From an uncultured Bacteroidota bacterium (GTDB lineage Bacteria; Bacteroidota; Bacteroidia; 2-12-FULL-35-15), in contig CAIQBY010000260.1 of NCBI GenBank assembly GCA_903870175.1, positions 1-45,749 of the forward strand: 45,749 nt of DNA, written 5' to 3'. Positions 2,872-42,716 of this stretch are shown here, piece by piece. The notes under the pieces are model-generated. The model worked only from the letters and a program-made list of their open reading frames with translations, was not told where the DNA came from and made no database searches. The position numbers and the translations under genes are program-made. Position 1 is the first letter of the stretch; each line of letters starts with the position of its first letter.

Positions 2872-3930
2872 GTGGACAAATACTGTAATTATATAATCGT
2901 TGGGCAGGGCATCGCAGGAACCGTACTTGGGCAAACTCTATTAGATCAAAATAAATCGGTTTTAATAATTGATGATTTGTCTTTATCTAACGCATCAAGA
3001 ATTGCGGCAGGATTATACAATCCAATTGTATTTAAAAGATTGGTAAAAAGCTGGATGATTGATGATTTACTTCCGGTGATGAATAAGTTTTACACTGATG
3101 CTGAACAATTATTAAACTATAAATTTTATTTTGAAAGAAAAATTGTTAAACCTTTTGCCGAAGCACATGAAAGAGCATTGTGGCAGAAAAAAGTAAATGA
3201 AGAAGTTGGTAAATATTTAAGTAATGATATTCATTATGACTTTCTTAAAGATATTATTTATAATCCGCTTGGTGTATCCGAAGTTTTAAGCGGAGGTAAT
3301 TTGAAAATTGAAATCTTCTTAGATTTATTCAGAGAGTATTTTAAAAGGGAAAATATACTTCTTGAGGAAAAAATTAATTACAATGAACTTATGGTAAATG
3401 AAAATAATGTTGTTTATAAAAACATTTCCGCTGATAAAGTAATTTTCTGTGAGGGATTTAAAACCATTGATAATCCTTACTTCTCTTGGCTTCCATTTAA
3501 ACTTACAAAAGGAGAAGTTATAACGATTAAAATTCCAAATGCAATCATACCTGACCAATTTGTAATAAATAAAGGAGTATTTATTCTTCCTTTAGGAAAT
3601 GGAATGTATAAAGCAGGGGCTACTTACGAGTGGAATGATTTATCGGAACATCCAACCGAAAAAGGCAAGGAGGAATTGATGGATAAGCTAAATAAGGTAA
3701 TCAAATTACCTTTTGAAATAATAGATCATCAGGCGGGAATAAGGCCTACGGTAATTGATAGACGACCTTTACTAGGAATACATCCAAAGCATAAATCTTT
3801 GGCTGTATTTAATGGTTTGGGAACAAAAGGTGTAATGCTTGCTCCTTATTTTGCAAAGCATTTTGCAGATTATTTAGACAAAAAAAATGTATTGAATAAA
3901 GAAGTGGATATAAATAGATTTATAAAGTAA
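2872..3930 (+). CDS. FAD-dependent oxidoreductase (DAO family)
   Basis: The 352-residue protein has an N-terminal dinucleotide-binding fold, IIVGQGIAGTVLG (GxGxxG) followed by a strand ending LIIDD, as in the D-amino-acid oxidase/glycine oxidase superfamily. SRIAAGLYNPIV near residue 42 and the C-terminal AGIRPTVIDRRPLLG and NGLGTKGVMLAPYFA segments are typical of the second FAD-contacting half. It is probably cytoplasmic, with no signal peptide. The start is a GTG at 2872 behind an A-rich leader; no upstream ATG in frame gives a better fit. The gene is divergent from the rimK-type operon and converges on the acyltransferase with only 3 bases between stops. The substrate cannot be inferred. 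Confidence 0.8.
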   Translation: MDKYCNYIIVGQGIAGTVLGQTLLDQNKSVLIIDDLSLSNASRIAAGLYNPIVFKRLVKSWMIDDLLPVMNKFYTDAEQLLNYKFYFERKIVKPFAEAHERALWQKKVNEEVGKYLSNDIHYDFLKDIIYNPLGVSEVLSGGNLKIEIFLDLFREYFKRENILLEEKINYNELMVNENNVVYKNISADKVIFCEGFKTIDNPYFSWLPFKLTKGEVITIKIPNAIIPDQFVINKGVFILPLGNGMYKAGATYEWNDLSEHPTEKGKEELMDKLNKVIKLPFEIIDHQAGIRPTVIDRRPLLGIHPKHKSLAVFNGLGTKGVMLAPYFAKHFADYLDKKNVLNKEVDINRFIK

Positions 3931-8000: not shown

Positions 8001-8507
8001 AACAGGCACCAGCGCATACTTCAGATACTTTTTATTTTCCTTGAAATCAACGGCAGAAGTGAAAGGAATAGGTTTTAATTCTTTTGTTTTCTGATTGATG
8101 CTTGCCTCAATTAAGTTGAGAGTTGACAGTTGATAGTTGATAGTTGATTGCTGTTCCTGCAATTGAAGCACATTTAATAATTTATCCTGAACATTGCTGA
8201 AGTGCTTGCCTATTATGTTTGCGGCATCGGTATAAGAAATAATCCGACCCATTTTATAAAGATGTGAAACAGGAATTGCAATGTATTTTACAAATACAAA
8301 ACCAGTAGCGGCGACAAAGGAATAGAACAGCACAGTGCGCACGGCAATATTAAAATGAGCAAAATATTCGAGTGCTGTCACCGTCACGAAAAACAATAAT
8401 ATCAAGCCTACACTGTAAATCAAGCCGCGAAGCAGTTGATTTTTATAATACTTCCGGATAAACTCATCCAGCTTTTCCTTTAATGTCTGATAATTCGAAT
8501 TCGTCAT
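5088..8507 (-). CDS. DUF4175-family membrane-anchored coiled-coil protein
   Basis: The 1139-residue protein starts with two membrane segments (residues about 24-47 and 57-80) and has a third hydrophobic helix at about 163-185, matching the DUF4175 architecture. A long periplasmic or extracellular beta region follows. From about residue 520 to 780 it is extremely rich in Lys, Glu and Gln (for example KKEELQKKVENIKNENQE), a long predicted coiled coil, then a Gly/Pro/Lys-rich low-complexity stretch and a charged C-terminus. The function of the family is unknown. Residues about 118-134 (STINYQLSTLNLIE) come from a short tandem DNA repeat that appears to be an in-frame insertion (see findings). 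A predicted promoter box lies at 8551-8558. Confidence 0.85.
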   Translation of the reverse strand: MTNSNYQTLKEKLDEFIRKYYKNQLLRGLIYSVGLILLFFVTVTALEYFAHFNIAVRTVLFYSFVAATGFVFVKYIAIPVSHLYKMGRIISYTDAANIIGKHFSNVQDKLLNVLQLQEQQSTINYQLSTLNLIEASINQKTKELKPIPFTSAVDFKENKKYLKYALVPVLLITILLFAAPSIITDGTKRLVKHSEYFEKQAPFQFVITNPELKTVAQQDFELKVKLTGNEVPDNVYVEIEGNEFKLDKENSINFNYVFKNVQKNINFQLLADGFKSKEFELVALPNPILLNFDIALDYPAYLNKRNETIKNTGDLVIPAGTKVSWNFNTQNTKNIRLNFNDTSFAISPSSENAFNYSSRYFRDKTYSITTANQYLKSKDSVTYNINVIPDAYPQIVVEEKKDSNSTKRISFRGEVKDDYGFNRLTFNYRYITNNDTAATASEKNKKAEMHITPITINKAAIQDQFYHYWDMAELGVNAGDQIEYYFEIWDNDGVTGSKATRSQKMIFKAPSLKELAENTDKNNAKIKDDLIESIKQAKDVQKELTDLQRKVAEKKELNWEEKKKLQDLLDKQKELQKKVENIKNENQENNQKQNEYKQQDENILEKQKQLEELFDKVMTPELKEKYDELQKLLEKLDKDKVQDALDKIKLDNKDIMKELDRNLEIFKQMEVEQKLQQNIDKLNELAKKENEEAKKTEDKKSDAKEQKEKQDELNKQFDDLKKDMKDLEKKNSELEQPKKLENSEQKQEDIKKDMESGSEQLKSGQKKGASKSQKSAADKMEKMAAEMAKAKEKEEQEQAGEDADKLRQILENLIRVSFSQESLMGDFEKTKPCDPQIAKIDKQQKKLQDDSKMIEDSLLALSKRNPKIKETVNKEISAINMNMEKAVNKIELAAAPSMDGRNHKEEGRSRQQFAMTSVNNLALMLNESLNQMQEEAKQKNGPPGSGSCKKPGGKGSKPSASSLRKMQQQLNEQIKKLKEGMQKNGNKPGDKPGMAPGNGMSQELAKLAAQQAAIRQEIQKMGDQINKDGKGAGGMSKLADKMEETETDLVNKVISQETIRRQEEILTRLLESEKADKERELDEKRQSNEAKSENKRNQNQFLEYNRLKQKETELLKTVPASLNPFYKEKVNLYFNNIEN

Positions 8508-8705: not shown

Positions 8706-11115
8706 ATGAAAACAATTATTAAAATATTCCTGATTTGTCTTATAACATTTATGACAAATAAGACTATTGCACAAACCGGCTCTTTACATGGTATCATTTC
8801 GGATACAACCAACTCTCCAATTCCATTTGTCAATATAATCTTCTCTGGCAGTTACAACTAATGATAAAGGGGAGTTTCAATTGAAAAATATCCCCATTGG
8901 AAATCAAACTTTAATAATCCATTCTATTGGTTTCAAAACATTGACTTATGAAACTGATATTAAAGAAAACCAATCAATAGAAATTAATATTCCTCTGCAT
9001 GTTGATATAAAAAACTTAAAGGAGATTACTGTAAATGGTATTTCAACTATCAGCGGAATGGGGCATTTGGATGAAGTTCATGACGGTGTTATTTATTCAG
9101 GAATGAAAAATGAAGTAGTTATTTTGGATAGTCTTGATGCAAATACGGCTCAGAATAATCCTCGCCAGTCTGTCGGCAGAATTCCCGGGGCTAATTATTC
9201 CGAAACCGAAGGTGGCGGCTTTCCTTCCAACGGTATTGGTTTCAGAGGGCTTAATCCTGCTCAATCAGTTGAATTGGATACCCGTCAAAATGGATATAAC
9301 ATTGCAGGTGATATTTATGGTTATCCTGAATCCTATTATCTGCCGCCATTAGCAGCTATTGAGCGTATTGAAGTTACTCGCGGCGCATCCTCCCTTCAAT
9401 TCGGTCCCCAGTTTGGCGGAGTAATAAATTATATTGTGAAAAGCGCACCCGAAAATAAACCTTTTGAATTTAATACTGAACAGACAGGCGGCAGTTTTGG
9501 TCTCTTGAATTCATTTAATTCTATTGGCGGAACATATAAAAAATGGAGTTATTATACTTTTATTCAGTATGAAGGCATAACAGGCTGGCGGCCTAATTCA
9601 CAGGTACAACAGGCAATCGGATTTGCGCGAATACAATATAATGTTACAAACAAATTCAAAATCGGGTTTGAATATTCTTTATTAAGAAATAAAATTCACA
9701 TGCCTGGCGGATTGGATGATGCCGAATTTAATCAGGACCCTCAGCAATCATTCCGTTCGCGCAACTGGCTTACTACTCCATGGAATATACTGGCACTTAC
9801 AGCAGATTATAAAATAACAAATAAAGTGATGCTGTCTTTCAAATCAGCATTAAATCTTAGTCAGCGTAATATTGTATGGAGGAATGAAGATGGAGGAGCA
9901 GGTGCCATTGACAGCATAAGTACCGCTACAAACAGTTACTTACCTCGCGAAGTAGAACATGAAGGATTTAAAAGTTCTACTTCCGAACTCCGTTTGATTG
10001 CCAGTTATAATATTGCCGGCATCGAACAAACTCTTGCTGCAGGTGTTCGATTTTTCAGTGGCTTTATGAACCGTGAAGAAGGCGGCATCGGCTCATCAGG
10101 CAGTAATTTTGATTTAGGACTTTATGAAGGAACTTATGCCAACAACCTTGATTTTACTACTCTTAACGTAGCCCCGTTTATTGAAAACACTTTTCATATT
10201 GGGCAACACCTTTCTGTAACGCCCGGTATCAGGTATGAGTATATTAAATCGACAGCTAAAGGATATGTTACTACTGATGATGATTCTATAATAAATGTAA
10301 ACGAAAGCAAAGCCAGATATATTCCCCTTGCAGGTATCGGAATTCAGTTCAAAACGTCTTTAACTACTAATATCTATGGCAATATTTCACAGGCTTATCG
10401 CCCTATCGAATATTCTTTTCAATATCCGTTAGGCTTGGATATTGATGCAAAAATAGACCCGAACCTTAAAGATATAAGTGGCTACAATGCTGATTTGGGA
10501 TGGAGAGGCTCTGTAAAAAACTTTCTTAATTTCGGCTTAGGCGTTTTTTATATGGTAAAAAACAATGAAATAGCCATTGAAAATCTTACCGATGCAAGCG
10601 GTAACGCATATACTTATGAAACCAATGTGGCTAATTCAGTTCATCAGGGTGCCGAAACGTATGTGGAATTAAACATTACAAAGCTATTTACTCATAAATC
10701 ACGATTCGGAACTGTAAGTTTTTTTAATTCGTTTGCTTATGACGATGCAAGATATGTAAGCGGAATTTATAAGGGCAACATAGCTGAATTTGCACCAAAA
10801 ACAATAGAAAGAATAGGACTTACTTATTCTATTAAAAAAATTTCTACTACTTTACTATACAGCAGCACATCCAAATCTTTTTCAGATGCCAACAATACTG
10901 TATATAGCAGTGATGCCGAAATTGGTATTATTCCTGCATATCAGGTGATAGACTGGTCGGCAACTTTAAAGATAAAAAATTATCAGATAAAACTTGGTGT
11001 TAATAATCTTGCGGACGCAAAATACTTTACCATGCGTACTAATGAATATCCCGGTCCGGGAATCATTCCTTCTCTCGGCAGAAGTTTTTATGTAGGATTT
11101 GCAGCTAAGTTTTAA
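8706..11115 (+). pseudogene. TonB-dependent receptor, FecA-like, with frameshift near its N-terminus
   Basis: From 8881 the frame is open for 744 codons. It encodes the end of a carboxypeptidase-regulatory-like domain, a plug (GFRGLNPAQSVELD, IERIEVTRGASSLQFGPQFGGVINYI) and a 22-strand-type barrel ending RSFYVGFAAKF with a terminal Phe. The plug and the GPQxGGVINY motif resemble FecA-type ferric citrate receptors. The natural start is probably the ATG at 8706, giving a signal peptide (MKTIIKIFLICLITFMTNKTIAQ) and the start of the same domain (GSLHGIISDTT). That frame ends at a TAA at 8856-8858, while the continuation (AVTTNDKGEFQL) is one frame over. Removing one T near 8841 would join them. 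It could be a true frameshift or a sequencing error; the barrel itself is intact. Confidence 0.8.
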
Positions 11116-11267: not shown

Positions 11268-11632
11268 ACTCATTTCTTTTTGATAAAAACTCATTAGTTG
11301 GTTATCAAAACTAATTGGTTTTTATGCTCGCCTCGTTGCTTTTTATTCTTTACTCAACCCTTTTTTTGCTCAGCTCAAACCTTATTACCCTCAGCTCATT
11401 GGTTTTTGTGCTTTACTCGGTAGTTTTTGCCCAAAACTCCCGAGTAAATGGCATTTACTCCCGAGCTTTTCGTCATTTACTCCTGAGTAAACCCGTTTTA
11501 CTCCCGAGTAAAGTGCTTTTACTCCTGAGTTTTGGCTCCAAACCAATGAGTAAAGCATCAAAACTACCGAGTTGCGGTCAAACACCTGTAAACATTGAAG
11601 AAAATGATTTGAGTTTTGACCCAAAACCTTAA
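11268..11632. repeat. Array A: degenerate tandem repeat with 21-bp period
   Basis: Successive copies begin at 11268, 11289, 11310, 11331, 11352, 11373, 11394, 11415, 11436, 11457, 11479, 11500, 11521, 11542, 11563, 11584 and 11605. Every step is 21 bp except one of 22. The most regular copies read ACTCCCGAGT or ACTCCTGAGT followed by a T-rich spacer; TTTACTCCCGAGTAAA is a perfect dyad apart from its two central bases. Outer copies are more diverged (ACTCATTAG, GCTCAAACC, ACTACCGAG); a weaker copy may start at 11247. The overlapping open frames of 105 and 77 codons are by-products of a period divisible by three. There is no gene within the array; 11633-11795 holds nothing recognisable. Confidence 0.85.
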
Positions 11633-11795: not shown

Positions 11796-11940
11796 TAGAC
11801 CTCTTTCATAATTCAAGCAGGAGATTCTTCGCTTCGCTCTGAATGACAGGTATTTTTCTCCCCCTCTCCAAAACAAGCGAAACTTGTCATTCAGAGCGAA
11901 GCGAAGAATCTAAAATCAATTGAATTATGAAAGAAGTCTA
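11796..11940. repeat. 145-bp inverted repeat (palindromic element, possibly MITE-like)
   Basis: The element runs from TAGAC to GTCTA. Inner arms at 11822-11848 and 11885-11911 are a perfect 27-bp inverted repeat containing TTCGCTTCGCTCTGAATGA. The outer arms pair TTTCATAATTCAA with TTGAATTATGAAA. The 36-base loop contains CTCCCCCTCTCC. It encodes no protein. Similar palindromes with GAAGCGAAGAATC-type arms are dispersed in many bacterial genomes; whether this is a mobile miniature element or a large transcript hairpin cannot be told here. Confidence 0.8.
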
Positions 11941-12040
11941 ATTAAATATAAATTTTACCTGCCACTTCTAAAACGCAATTCATTTATCTTATAAATATTA
12001 CATCTTACCTTCTTTTAAAAATTAAAACCTTATTTATTTA

Positions 12041-12069: not shown

Positions 12070-14268
12070 ATGAAAAAATATTACTTAATCCTGTTCTGTT
12101 TTATATCAGTTTATTCATCAGCTCAAAACCTTACAAGGCAGCAAAACAGAACCGTTAACAGATTATTCAAGCATAAAACTGAAATATATTTTACGTTTCA
12201 AATAACCGACAGAAGTGAGATTAATACACTCACCCGAATCATTTCCATTGATAACGTAAAAGACCTGCAGGTATGGGCTGTGGCTAATAAGGAAGAATTC
12301 AAGAAGTTCATCACTCTTAATTATAATTATACCATATTGCCCAATGCCAACAGTAACGTGCATAATCCAATGGGCAGTTTAAGAAGCCCACAATCACATA
12401 CTCCCCTAACCGCATACCCTACTTATCAGCAATATGAAACGATGATGGCAAATTATGCAGTTACTTATCCTTCCATTTGTAAGCTGGTATTAATCGGTAC
12501 ATTGCCCAGCGGACACCGGTTGCTGGCACTTAAAATTTCTTCCAATGTAAATGTTCATCAGGATAAACCTCAGTTTTTATATACCTCAACAATGCACGCC
12601 GACGAGACTGCAGGATACATTGGGATGCTCGATTATGCTGATTATTTATTATCCAATTACGGAACAAATACACGAGTTACCAACCTTATTAATTCTATTG
12701 AGATATGGATAAACCCTCTTGCAAACCCTGATGGAACATATAAAGGCGGAGACAACACAGTAAATGGAGCAATAAGATACAATGCAAATAATGTTGATTT
12801 GAACAGAAATTATCCCGACCCTCAGGCAGGTCAGCATCCTGATGGAAATGCGTGGCAACCCGAAACAGTAGCTTTCATGCACTTTGCCGATTCACTTAAC
12901 TTGACTATGTCGGCTAATTTTCATGGCGGTTCCGAAGTAGTTAATTATCCCTGGGATACCTGGACAAGACTTCATGCAGATAATAACTGGTATGTTAGAG
13001 AATCTGCCAAATATGCGGATACTGCTCAGGCAAATGCTGCAGCTGGTTATTTTACAAGTGTAAATGCAAACGGAATTACTGACGGGTATGCTTGGTATCA
13101 GGTAACAGGCGGTCGTCAGGATTATATGAATTACTATAAACATTGCAGAGAAGTTACCATCGAATTATCAAATACCAAACTTATTCCTACCACAGATTTT
13201 ACAAATAAATGGAATGCAAATAGCAAATCCTATTTGAATTATATGCAGGAATGTCTGCATGGTTTTCGTGGCATAGTTACTGATTCCTGCAGCGGCTTGC
13301 CTCTAAAAGCAAAAGTATTTATTACAGGTCATGATGTAGATAGTTCGCATGTTTACTCCACGTCTTCTGTCGGCGATTATCATCGCCCAATCTATCAGGG
13401 AACATACAGTGTTACATTTTCTGCACCGGGATATGTTTCCAAAACCATAAATAATGTTGTAGTAACAGATATGAATAGTACAAGAGTTGATGTTGCTTTG
13501 CGCCCTTCGGTGATGCCTCTTGTAAGTGCATCCATTACTTCAATTGATACAGTAATTTGTCAGGGAACTGCTGCTGTTTTTAATGCTAATGCAGTTAACG
13601 GAGGAGGCAGTCCTGTATATCAATGGCAAGTAAATGGCAGCAATGCGGGCACCAATAGCAGTACCTTTTCATCTTCCACTTTAGCAAATGGTTCAACAAT
13701 CACATGTCATATCACTTCTTCAAATTCTTGTGTAACAAACAATCCTGCTTCATCAAATACAATTCATTTAATTGTCAATCCGCTTCCTGCAACACCCGTT
13801 ATTTCACAGGCGGGAACAGTATTAAACTCAAATTCAGCTACTGGAAATCAATGGTACAATAGTTCTTCAGGAGGTATAAGCGGCGCAACTGCTGTATCTT
13901 ATTCGCCTTCTGCAAGCGGAGACTACTTCGTAATTGTAACTGATGCCAATAGCTGCAGCTCGGATTCATCAAACATTATTCATTTTGTAAGTAGCGGCAT
14001 CACAGCGTTAAATGATAACAGCAATATTCAGGTATATCCAAATCCATGTAACGAGGAATTGTTTATTTATGTAATCAATAAAAATGCGAGTCAGAATATT
14101 ACTGTTGAAATTTATAATACACTCGGAGAGCAACTCTATAGTGAGAAGTCAGCAGAAAATAAATTAAGAATTAACTGCGGAGTTTTCTCATCAGGAATTT
14201 ACTTTTTGAATATTACAGACGGAAACATTATTCACAAGGAAAAGATAGTTGTAAATAATAAAAACTAA
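12070..14268 (+). CDS. Secreted M14-family zinc carboxypeptidase with T9SS sorting domain
   Basis: The 732 residues begin with a signal peptide (MKKYYLILFCFISVYSSAQ). The M14 catalytic domain spans about residues 115-400: the zinc site HADE follows STM near 177, substrate-binding NNVDLNRNYP comes near 242, the third zinc ligand is in ANFHGGSE near 284, and the catalytic Glu is in REVTIELS near 363. A carboxypeptidase-regulatory-like beta domain follows (about 400-480, GIVTDSCSGLPLKAKVFI), then Ig-like modules (CQGTAAVFNANA, QWYNSSSGGISGATA). The C-terminal type A sorting domain has IQVYPNPCNEELFI and ends GIYFLNITDGNIIHKEKIVV. The protein should be exported by Sec and then T9SS to the cell surface or medium, probably degrading peptides. 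Confidence 0.9.
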   Translation: MKKYYLILFCFISVYSSAQNLTRQQNRTVNRLFKHKTEIYFTFQITDRSEINTLTRIISIDNVKDLQVWAVANKEEFKKFITLNYNYTILPNANSNVHNPMGSLRSPQSHTPLTAYPTYQQYETMMANYAVTYPSICKLVLIGTLPSGHRLLALKISSNVNVHQDKPQFLYTSTMHADETAGYIGMLDYADYLLSNYGTNTRVTNLINSIEIWINPLANPDGTYKGGDNTVNGAIRYNANNVDLNRNYPDPQAGQHPDGNAWQPETVAFMHFADSLNLTMSANFHGGSEVVNYPWDTWTRLHADNNWYVRESAKYADTAQANAAAGYFTSVNANGITDGYAWYQVTGGRQDYMNYYKHCREVTIELSNTKLIPTTDFTNKWNANSKSYLNYMQECLHGFRGIVTDSCSGLPLKAKVFITGHDVDSSHVYSTSSVGDYHRPIYQGTYSVTFSAPGYVSKTINNVVVTDMNSTRVDVALRPSVMPLVSASITSIDTVICQGTAAVFNANAVNGGGSPVYQWQVNGSNAGTNSSTFSSSTLANGSTITCHITSSNSCVTNNPASSNTIHLIVNPLPATPVISQAGTVLNSNSATGNQWYNSSSGGISGATAVSYSPSASGDYFVIVTDANSCSSDSSNIIHFVSSGITALNDNSNIQVYPNPCNEELFIYVINKNASQNITVEIYNTLGEQLYSEKSAENKLRINCGVFSSGIYFLNITDGNIIHKEKIVVNNKN

Positions 14269-22847: not shown

Positions 22848-23567
22848 CTACGGAATTCGGAAACTTTGCGGTGCGCTCCAGTCGCCTTTAATACCGGTAG
22901 CGGTAACCCATCGGGAACAGGAATAAAACAGGAGACCTGAATATTTTGAGTTGAAAACAAGAATCATCGGTGTACGTGTTCCGTCTTCTATCCGTCCATA
23001 ATCATCAGCACTATCGGGTGGCACAGCAAAAGCAATCACTCCTTGAGCATCAGGCGGCAGCGGCGTACAAATAAAAATAGCTGTTTCCACACGTGCTGCA
23101 CCTTCCGGTTTTCCTCTTTTTTTCACACCTTTAGCATCCGGCTGCTGGCGATAAAATGATTTTACATTTGGAGGATTGCCTGCCTGCATCGCCATCAAAG
23201 GCACAGTTGCAGGTTTGCCTATCTTGGTTTTAGTAGTTTTATGTGGTTTTAATCCGCAATCCGACACATCTCCGTCATCCATCGAATCGTTTGCATAAAT
23301 CCATACTTTCACAAATTTACGCATCCATTTACTAAGATTAGCGCGTGCTATGTCTTTTTTATCCCTTTGAGTAGTGTTGGACTTAGTTTTCTTTTTAGTA
23401 ATCGCATATATTTTGCTCCACGCAATAAGCAAAGTCGCGCCTGCTGCTATTACGGTGGTATCAATATCCCAGTCGGCAGCATTATCCGTTACTTCTTCCA
23501 TTATTTGATTTACAAGCGTATCATACGTTTCGTCGGGTCCGCCAAATTGGTCTGTACTGTCTGACAT
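22848..23567 (-). CDS. Unknown protein encoded downstream of 21-bp array B
   Basis: The 239-residue protein has an acidic helical N-terminus (YDTLVNQIMEEVTDNAADWD) and a hydrophobic helix near 60 (TVIAAGATLLIAWSKIYAI) too short and mixed to be a confident membrane anchor. A basic linker follows (KKKTKSNTTQRDKKD). The C-terminal beta-rich part ends SRWVTATGIKGDWSAPQSF, which is reminiscent of a fibronectin-III-like fold. No signal peptide or catalytic motif is seen. I do not recognise a named family. It is a single-gene unit on the minus strand: a TACTTTTG box at 23881-23888, array B in the apparent leader, the CDS, then a strong terminator. Confidence 0.75.
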   Translation of the reverse strand: MSDSTDQFGGPDETYDTLVNQIMEEVTDNAADWDIDTTVIAAGATLLIAWSKIYAITKKKTKSNTTQRDKKDIARANLSKWMRKFVKVWIYANDSMDDGDVSDCGLKPHKTTKTKIGKPATVPLMAMQAGNPPNVKSFYRQQPDAKGVKKRGKPEGAARVETAIFICTPLPPDAQGVIAFAVPPDSADDYGRIEDGTRTPMILVFNSKYSGLLFYSCSRWVTATGIKGDWSAPQSFRIP

Positions 23568-23642
23568 TTTATTATTTATTTAATTGTTATTACTATTATT
23601 ATTAACTCTTTTTCCGTTTTATTAAATTACTTTATTTTATTC

Positions 23643-23852
23643 GGGAGTTCCCTGTTTTTATTTGGGAGCTCCTGTTTTTAAAAAGGGACTTCCCGTTTTT
23701 TATTCAGGAGTTCCTGTTTTTTAAAAGGGAGTTCCCTGTTTTTATTTAGGAGCTCAAGTTTTTAAAAAGGGAGTTCCCGTTTTTTATTTGGGAGCTCCTT
23801 TATTTTATTTGGGAGTTCCTGTTTTTTAAAATTGCCTCCGATTATTTTTACT
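23643..23852. repeat. Array B: degenerate tandem repeat with exact 21-bp period
   Basis: Copies start at 23643, 23664, 23685, 23706, 23727, 23748, 23769, 23790 and 23811, with a decayed tenth at 23832. All steps are exactly 21 bp. The core is GGGAGYTCCY, nearly self-complementary (GGGAGTTCCC, GGGAGCTCC), followed by GTTTTT. Copies alternate between ATTT-type spacers (1, 3, 5, 7) and AAAA-type spacers (2, 4, 6), a 42-bp higher order; the first and fifth copies are identical. The array lies between a predicted minus-strand promoter (23881-23888) and the start codon at 23567, so it is probably transcribed as a leader. The remainder of 23568-23933 is plain AT-rich sequence. Confidence 0.92.
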
Positions 23853-23880
23853 TTCAAAACCTTCAATGACCTTAACACGA

Positions 23881-23888
23881 CAAAAGTA
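23881..23888 (-). promoter_or_regulatory. Predicted -7 box reading into array B
   Basis: The minus strand reads TACTTTTG, a match to TAnnTTTG, located after the stop codon of 23934-24374 and just upstream of array B. It would produce a transcript carrying the array as an approximately 300-base leader of the gene at 22848-23567. Confidence 0.45.
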
Positions 23889-23933
23889 TTTGGTAAAAAG
23901 AAGAGAAACGTAGGGAAGTCCCTATTTCTTTTT

Positions 23934-24374
23934 TTATTTTTCCTGAGAAGATTTATAAAGCGAAGTAATGGATTGTTTGGAAGTACCGCATCCGGTAGAT
24001 TCATTGAGATTAGTAATAATTATTTCCAGCACTTTTTTTCCAATACCTAAATTATCAGCCGCCAGTTGCACTGTTTTCCCATCACTCAATTCAATAAAAG
24101 CTTTTATATCAAGGTCTTTATATCCTTTCTTTTTACAAAAAACAATAAACACGGTATCAATCTCCGAAAGTTCTATAGGCAGCGTCTTTTCAGATATTTC
24201 CGTGATAACAACAGCAAGCGGCAGGTTATGTTCATCATCATATATTACATTGGATAATATAGTTTGATGAACATACAAATAACATTCTCTCATATTATTT
24301 GCTGAATAAATAAATGTACTTGTAGATTGTTTTTTATTATCATAAAAAATAATTAAATATTCTTTTGTTTTCAT
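23934..24374 (-). CDS. Small protein with LuxR-like helix-turn-helix C-terminus
   Basis: The 146 residues have a beta-rich N-terminal half (EYLIIFYDNKKQSTSTFIYS, AVVITEISEKTLPIE). The C-terminal segment from about residue 94 aligns by eye with a LuxR/GerE-type DNA-binding domain: ELSDGKTVQLAADNLGIGK, then KVLEIIITNLNESTGCG and SKQSITSLYK correspond to the helix-turn-helix and the following helix. This suggests a DNA-binding regulator. It lies immediately upstream of array B on the same strand with 45 bases between its stop and the array promoter box, so the array is a candidate target. The assignment is tentative. Confidence 0.6.
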   Translation of the reverse strand: MKTKEYLIIFYDNKKQSTSTFIYSANNMRECYLYVHQTILSNVIYDDEHNLPLAVVITEISEKTLPIELSEIDTVFIVFCKKKGYKDLDIKAFIELSDGKTVQLAADNLGIGKKVLEIIITNLNESTGCGTSKQSITSLYKSSQEK

Positions 24375-36263: not shown

Positions 36264-36302
36264 CCTGATGTTTAGAATTTAGATATTAGAATTTAGAATT
36301 TA
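36264..36302. repeat. Short dispersed AT repeat (TTTAGAATTTAG-type)
   Basis: Imperfect tandem copies of TTAGAATTTAGA/TATTAGAATT between csp and rng. The same word occurs at 39000-39032, 41465-41480 and 41630-41645, each beside a gene end. They look like dispersed simple-sequence repeats rather than regulatory sites. Confidence 0.5.
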
Positions 36303-38997: not shown

Positions 38998-39048
38998 TCA
39001 ATTTAGAATTTAGAAATTAGTATTTAGAATTTCCATTCTAAAACTTAA

Positions 39049-40364: not shown

Positions 40365-40511
40365 AAGGTAATGTCGAAGATTTTTGTGGTAAAAACTTAA
40401 ATTTCTGTGGTAATCTTCAAAAATTCCGTGGTAAAAACTTCATTTTTTGTGGTAGAATTTTAAAATTCTTTGGTAAAAACATAGTTTTTCTTCATCAAAA
40501 CTTAGTTATTC
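40365..40511. repeat. Array C: degenerate tandem repeat with exact 21-bp period
   Basis: Copies begin at 40365, 40386, 40407, 40428, 40449, 40470 and 40491, all exactly 21 bp apart. The core is GTGGTA, usually GTGGTAAAAACTT, followed by a T-rich end (TTTCT, TTTTT). Odd full copies (40386, 40428, 40470) share TGGTAAAAAC while even ones (40407, 40449) have GTGGTAATC or GTGGTAGAA, a 42-bp alternation. The last copy overlaps the stop codon of the gene at 40502. The core differs completely from those of arrays A and B, but period and layout are the same. Confidence 0.9.
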
Positions 40512-41660: not shown

Positions 41661-42716
41661 ATGAATTCTTTTTCCGATAAAATAATAAGTTGGTACAAAA
41701 TCAATAAGCGCGATTTGCCGTGGCGAAATACCAAAGACGCCTACCTTATCTGGCTTTCCGAAATCATCATGCAGCAAACCCGTGTGGAACAGGGGATGAA
41801 TTATTATATAAGTTTCGCAACCAGTTACCCAACCGTAAAACATCTTGCAAAAGCCGATAACGATGATATAATGAAGCTTTGGCAAGGTCTCGGATATTAT
41901 TCCAGAGCCAGAAACCTGCATGCCACAGCACGTATAATTGCTGATAAATACAAAGGAAAATTTCCGGATGATTACACACAAATCCTTTCTTTAAAGGGCA
42001 TCGGCGAATATACAGCAGCCGCAATAGCATCTTTTGCATTTGATAAGCCACACGCAGTAGTTGATGGCAACGTGTTTCGGGTACTCGCCCGTGTATTCGG
42101 AATCGAAACTCCGATTGATACGTCGCAAGGCAAAAAAGAATTTTATGCTCTCGCCAATCAGCTGTTAAATCCAAAACATGCAGCCATGCACAATCAAGCT
42201 ATCATGGAGTTTGGAGCCATTCAATGCAAACCCGTCTCGCCCGATTGTTCCGTTTGCCCTTTAAATACAATGTGTTTCGCTTTCGCGAACAGGCGTGTTG
42301 CTCAATTACCGATAAAGGCAAAAACAACAAAAGTGCGAAACCGTTATTTTAATTATATCGTACTTCATCATTCAGGAACCACTGCCATCAACAAACGCAA
42401 AGCAAAAGACATCTGGACAAATCTCTATGATTTCCCGTTAATAGAAACCGAAAAAGAACTATCCGAACAGGAATTTTTAGCTTCGCCGCAATGGAAAAAA
42501 TTTATCGGCAAACATAAATATTCAATAACATCCATTTCCGGAATTTACAAACACATTTTAAGTCATCAGAAAATTTATGCACGATTTTTGGAGGTGAATT
42601 GCAATGTTTCTCTGGAAAAAATAATTCCTTCGTCAGCAATAATTATAAAAGAAACCGAAATTGAAAAATATGCCGTGCCAAGGTTGATTGAAAATTATCT
42701 GACGAAAAAGAATTAA
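41661..42716 (+). CDS. mutY: A/G-specific adenine DNA glycosylase
   Basis: The 351 residues match MutY. The catalytic Glu is in WLSEIIMQQTRVEQ near residue 37. The helix-hairpin-helix is SLKGIGEYTAAAIASFAF near 110-127, with the active-site Asp in VVDGNVFRVLAR. The 4Fe-4S cluster has Cys spaced x6-x2-x5 in CKPVSPDCSVCPLNTMC near 191. The C-terminal NUDIX-like domain that recognises 8-oxoguanine starts around 230 (YFNYIVLHHS). It removes adenine paired with 8-oxoG in base excision repair. In relatives mutY is often next to an HU gene; the intervening 2.3 kb here is accessory. Confidence 0.95.
   Translation: MNSFSDKIISWYKINKRDLPWRNTKDAYLIWLSEIIMQQTRVEQGMNYYISFATSYPTVKHLAKADNDDIMKLWQGLGYYSRARNLHATARIIADKYKGKFPDDYTQILSLKGIGEYTAAAIASFAFDKPHAVVDGNVFRVLARVFGIETPIDTSQGKKEFYALANQLLNPKHAAMHNQAIMEFGAIQCKPVSPDCSVCPLNTMCFAFANRRVAQLPIKAKTTKVRNRYFNYIVLHHSGTTAINKRKAKDIWTNLYDFPLIETEKELSEQEFLASPQWKKFIGKHKYSITSISGIYKHILSHQKIYARFLEVNCNVSLEKIIPSSAIIIKETEIEKYAVPRLIENYLTKKN

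Follow-up and report, generated by a model that had tools for sequence, protein, structure and literature searches.

A 21-bp Tandem Array in an Uncultured Bacteroidota Genome Belongs to a Class of Intergenic Arrays Concentrated in One Lineage

Genomic Context and Structure of Array A

The analyzed DNA (hereafter, the window) is the 45,749-nucleotide stretch of contig CAIQBY010000260.1 from assembly GCA_903870175.1 of an uncultured Bacteroidota bacterium, whose genome is designated G000; its closest relative is designated G012. The window contains three arrays of the 21-bp class, named A, B, and C (Table 1). The genes adjacent to array A, described in the initial annotation as a TonB receptor and a peptidase, were assigned using Pfam to a TonB-dependent receptor and an M14 zinc carboxypeptidase.

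Table 1. Arrays of the 21-bp class in the window and the genes flanking array A.
Feature	Position	Strand	Characteristics
TonB-dependent receptor gene, left of array A	8881..11115	+	Pfam PF00593, PF07715
Array A	11268..11632	.	21-bp unit in about 17 copies; a single 22-bp step at 11457-11479
Array A, best-conserved centre	11415..11583	.	eight copies with the inverted repeat ACTC-nn-GAGT
M14 zinc carboxypeptidase gene, right of array A	12070..14268	+	Por secretion tail (type IX sorting)
Array B	23630..23828	.	21/42-bp units, core GGGAGTTCCC; same class as array A
Array C	40380..40490	.	21/42-bp units, core GTGGTA, not self-complementary; same class as array A

The self-identity of array A at lag 21 was 0.60 to 0.64 against a mean of 0.30 across the window, and no array at any period was found in the dinucleotide-shuffled window at the threshold used for the real sequence. 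These values bear out the tandem block proposed in the initial annotation. Its copy number, its rank as the longest of the three arrays, and the exact position of the 22-bp step were confirmed as well. The consensus of the best copies is TTTACTCCCGAGTAAA followed by about five variable bases, an inverted repeat with a 2-bp centre. The anchor ACTC/GCTC, said to recur every 21 bp from 11268 to 11605, occurred 14 times between 11240 and 11640, 11 of these in phase, and was absent past 11535; the copies from 11542 on carry ACCA/ACTA at the anchor position. Likewise, the regular middle and decaying ends were recovered, with the best copies at 11436, 11479, and 11500, but the right third is more decayed than had been described. 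Array A occupies a single place in its own genome. Between it and the peptidase gene (11805-11945), two inverted copies of the GATTCTTCGCTTCGCTCTGAATGACA type form a long palindrome, which resembles a small dispersed palindromic element.

A coding region with seven-residue repeats was considered, since 21 is divisible by three and a frame of 105 codons (11315-11632) is open. The initial annotation had held that static arrays with a conserved coding frame would make the block a gene. Open frames were found over 28 of 50 arrays, compared with 27.6 in arrays whose 21 columns had been permuted with the period kept (the column-permutation null); the protein-coding repeat was rejected because frames are open no more often than by chance. 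Moreover, array A gave no Pfam match, its repeat frame is broken by the 22-bp step, and its variation is spread across the codon phases, so that this reading is almost certainly wrong. Array A was confirmed as a genuine noncoding tandem array with a 21-bp unit.

Distribution of the Arrays

The census of G000 was based on 29 contigs picked by contig number only, with mostly-N contigs skipped. Nine arrays of the 21-bp class were found in the 168 kb counted, i.e., 54 per Mb, which extrapolates to approximately 210 arrays per genome. Similar densities were obtained for six named close relatives (67 per Mb; 8 in 119 kb) and for G012 (66 per Mb; 16 in 243 kb, from contigs partly chosen by search hits). 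Outside the close relatives, in the genus and the class, the density was about ten times lower: 6 per Mb in the remaining genus (5 in 776 kb, half of this sequence from one genome, G010), 3.5 per Mb in more distant named relatives (4 in 1155 kb), and 6 per Mb in 20 other families of the class (2 in 321 kb), the densities outside G000, G012, and G010 being based on roughly 20 to 50 kb from each genome. The 21-bp class accounted for 9 of 15 intergenic tandem matches in the G000 contigs (168 kb), 16 of 21 in G012, and 8 of 9 in the six close relatives, and no such array appeared in shuffled sequence. In a partly targeted sample, 31 of 145 long gaps (about a fifth) held arrays. The named relatives carry the label Bacteroidetes and were assembled from metagenomes, a process that can collapse tandem arrays; several of them appear from their isolate names to be derived from lakes. 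An assembly artefact is unlikely because the arrays recur in separate assemblies.

Array A is therefore not an orphan but one of a class of arrays concentrated in one lineage. The suggestion that it had lost a dedicated protein partner found no support, given about 54 arrays per Mb beside many unrelated genes and no common family among the flanking genes scanned. The Nop domain (PF01798), the hallmark of the partners of TIGR arrays, had no match in G000, compared with matches in 4 of 14 controls; the model could miss Tas proteins that have diverged. These results also bear on the reading in which the arrays are transcribed into repeated hairpin RNAs or guides of an RNA-guided system that resembles TIGR or CRISPR and whose partner lies elsewhere. 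The RNA of array A folds far better than shuffled sequences on both strands (z -6.8 and -6.3), but folding of both strands is expected of palindromic DNA. Array B is bordered by a flank of some 60 bp (23829-23904), perhaps a promoter or leader, which is found again next to two G012 arrays with other units, the orthologous one and one more; a general leader for the arrays was dropped because most other arrays share no flank. Against RNA guides, the Rfam search of the window returned no family, the genes beside arrays A and B matched no defence-system model, and array A had no similarity to phage or plasmid records. A tRNA search likewise gave nothing. CRISPR loci have long identical repeats, unique spacers, and cas genes, whereas here the unit is 21 bp without separate spacers and the neighbouring genes are not cas by Pfam. 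As described in PMC12045711, TIGR arrays resemble the present ones in their short, in part palindromic, tandem units but consist of two short repeats alternating with spacers next to a Nop-domain protein; neither feature was seen here, where the whole 21-bp unit is repeated. An RNA-guided role is accordingly improbable.

Unit Length and Sequence

The step between units was exactly 21 bp in 247 of 254 cases, with five steps of 20 bp and two of 22 bp, and a few arrays had a period of 20 or 41. Fifty arrays were used for counts after a duplicate row of the array L271 had been dropped from 51; omission of arrays with fewer than seven units left the 45 used for edge decay. The median copy number among 45 measured arrays was 11; the longest array measured is L271, with 27 copies of 21 bp at 3023-3591. 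Only nine cross-array similarities were detected among the 50 arrays, most of which have their own unit sequence. One unit family is common to array B, a second array of G000, and one array of G012, and another adjoins a multi-copy gene for a 315-residue protein without a Pfam match. An array and a gene for this protein of no known family lie in a block that is 98% identical (L240, 8326-10043, and L260 on G000 contig C181) between two genomes otherwise 75 to 91% identical in the segments shared here. Genes similar to it on contigs C77 and C82 each have their own array with related units.

The identity of units fell from 0.67 between neighbours to 0.55 at seven units apart, and the edges were decayed in 44 of the 45 arrays, part of which follows from the definition of array edges. 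Growth by internal duplication with outward ageing, as proposed for array A in the initial annotation, fits this drop in identity and the less similar edges, and it also fits the whole-unit differences between near-identical sister blocks.

Intrinsically curved DNA, in which phased A-tracts would shape the nucleoid, was suggested by the T- and A-tracts that recur in arrays A, B, and C. However, an A/T harmonic of 10.5 bp beyond column permutation (p<0.05) was found in 0 of 50 arrays (AA/TT: 6 of 50), and the mean G+C content of the arrays (0.39) exceeded that of array-less gaps (0.31). With no 10.5-bp harmonic, curvature was not supported and is very improbable. As a minor observation, proteins with T9SS-type C-termini were encoded by 10 of 58 genes flanking arrays and by 42 of 505 others, a weak difference obtained with a crude motif.

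Self-Complementarity of the Units

Folding was compared with the column-permutation null in 49 arrays, both L271 rows of the 51 being left out. Values of z below -2 were obtained for 24 of 49 arrays on the + strand and 20 of 49 on the - strand, the opposite extreme being reached by 0 and 1 of 49, respectively; array A gave z -6.3 (+) and -4.4 (-). In the palindrome test on full arrays with permuted columns, 17 of 40 arrays were significant at p<0.05, including array A (p=0.01); four weak entries of 44 had been left out, and array A had been extended by hand to 11632. The strict palindrome test on the 21-mer consensus was significant in only 9 of 50 arrays and in neither array A (p=0.20) nor array B (p=0.18), which we attribute to a loss of register caused by the 22-bp step in A and the 42-bp alternation in B. 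Covariation of paired columns was weak (z 2.7 at the true offset versus -3.7 to 1.2 at slid offsets, 10 arrays). About half of the arrays, and array A strongly, are thus self-complementary beyond a null that preserves the period. Since array C and the array L042 lack this symmetry and keep the 21-bp step, palindromes do not set the unit length.

Two further readings depend on these palindromes. REP/BIME elements are intergenic palindromic units of about 20 bp that belong to one dispersed sequence family, and elements of the REP type moved by a RAYT (Y1 transposase) would accord with the short intergenic palindromes and with five Y1 matches in G000. In contrast to REP/BIME, most arrays here have their own unit, found in one place. 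The Y1 counts do not track array density: the array-rich genomes G004 and G012 have two matches each, and G015 has 11 and no array in a 30-kb sample. In view of the unlinked Y1 counts and the lack of a single dispersed palindromic sequence, this origin was not supported and ranks as even less probable than curvature.

The second reading treats the arrays as cis-regulatory or nucleoid binding sites, on which dimeric proteins would putatively occupy inverted-repeat cores along one face of the helix (21 bp being two turns) and act cooperatively near promoters. It agrees with the exact 21-bp step and with the palindromic cores of array A, array B, and others. The 31 long gaps with arrays comprised 17 tandem, 11 divergent, and 3 convergent ones, but array-less gaps were similarly oriented (68, 28, and 18, respectively). 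About half of the arrays are not palindromic, and the strict consensus test gave few significant cases. Furthermore, the units differ between most loci, even orthologous ones, so a single protein cannot read the arrays by sequence. Binding arrays are therefore a rather unlikely explanation, albeit a more serious one than RNA guides.

Comparison of Orthologous Loci

Eight loci were compared between G000 and G012. At locus 1 (array B), the flanking genes (window positions 22848-23567 and 23934-24374) are orthologous and arrays are present in both species, with a different 21-bp unit in the G012 gap and the same right-hand boundary. At locus 2 (C7/C401), arrays follow the same gene, and the unit is 41 bp long in G000 but 21 bp in G012. 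Both genomes have the same unit family at locus 3 (C392/C506). At locus 4 (C168/C506), 400 of 420 aligned bases are identical and the arrays differ by one unit, and at locus 5 (C181/C177), a near-identical block has a 42-bp difference inside the array. Locus 6 is array A, present in G000 only: the G012 peptidase is 82% identical and has another upstream gene and no array, and no match to the TonB-dependent receptor gene was found in G012. Arrays were detected only in G012 at loci 7 and 8 (C332/C177), locus 7 being directly upstream of the ortholog of the window gene 41661-42716. The latter gene matched a PADLOC model of a type II nicking endonuclease (REase_II, E 7.7e-35).

Array presence thus differs at three of the eight loci and unit sequence at two. 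Since the two genomes do not share the gene beyond the array at loci 6 to 8, these represent a change of neighbourhood as much as a change of array. The two coincidences of arrays with different units, among five loci without shared units, are not significant alone, given that about one long gap in five contains an array. In G004, a 21-bp array of another unit lies upstream of a peptidase that is 59 to 61% identical. At one orthologous array, the unit family was kept even as identity in the DNA around it fell to about 77%, a sequence pattern that hints at possible constraint. Inspection by eye had suggested that arrays lie at rearrangement seams, but a test classed 40 of 50 array-less gaps as broken, along with 12 of 12 array gaps, and misjudged the array B pair. 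Whole-unit gain and loss, edge decay, and unit turnover were observed for the class, and array A has presumably undergone the same changes.

Proposed Origin and Related Repeats

The most probable reading, to which we assign a probability of roughly 0.6, is that array A belongs to a lineage-restricted class of intergenic minisatellites (variable-number tandem repeats, VNTRs). A minisatellite consists of units of about 10 to 100 bp joined head to tail, and its copy number varies among close copies of one locus; array A has this structure, and such variation was observed for two sister arrays of the class. A chance duplication of 21 bp would start an array, which could then lengthen or shorten in place, two helical turns at a time, by slippage or unequal exchange; decay would proceed from the edges, and arrays would be tolerated only between genes. 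Self-complementary units would probably assist by folding out as hairpins. Such exchange in place explains whole-unit change, edge decay, and unit turnover, and no function is needed to account for array A. Like bacterial VNTRs, the arrays are intergenic and head-to-tail, with whole-unit differences between near-identical copies and decayed edges; they differ in being very numerous per genome, in the fixed 21-bp step over mostly unrelated units, in the concentration in one lineage, and in frequent self-complementarity.

The fixed two-turn step goes beyond ordinary slippage and suggests a putative ruler that would act through mutation (a protein that bridges DNA or holds a loop) or through selection (binding on the same face); a repair, replication, or nucleoid protein of the lineage would be a candidate. 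It is not obvious how neutral processes alone would lead to a fixed step or to the enrichment of self-complementarity seen on the + strand. A stronger version, which we regard as doubtful, is dedicated array-making, in which an enzyme or bridging protein would duplicate intergenic sequence in 21-bp steps, with a preference for self-complementary stretches, and some two hundred mostly locus-specific arrays would be kept up and rewritten in place. To our knowledge, there is no known reason for bacterial noncoding minisatellites to share a unit length, and a literature search, mostly outside subscription journals, yielded no paper on 21-bp intergenic arrays in Bacteroidetes. If many unrelated arrays in one lineage are locked to exactly two helical turns, this would be a sign of a specific molecular ruler that acts in slippage, in repair, or in nucleoid structure, and the origin of tandem repeats would become open to direct tests. 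The arrays would also be of use as strain markers for uncultured lake Bacteroidetes.

Two other kinds of repeats invite comparison with these minisatellites. Iterons of plasmid origins are helically phased direct repeats some 20 bp long, as are the present units; however, the array class occupies an estimated hundreds of loci, and no replication initiator gene was among the Pfam matches of the array neighbours. Intergenic heptamer direct repeats (TAACTGA) of Beggiatoaceae, Cyanobacteria, and five Bacteroidetes, as described in PMC4679880, likewise form many arrays per genome, are patchy among lineages, and are missing from close relatives at some loci; they have a 7-bp step and one fixed sequence, in contrast to the 21-bp step and mostly locus-specific sequences found here. 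The window also contains heptamer tandem repeats (AGTTGAT, TTTAGAA, and AATTTAG at 8114-8148, 36271-36302, and 39000-39032), a second class of repeats similar to the published heptamer arrays.
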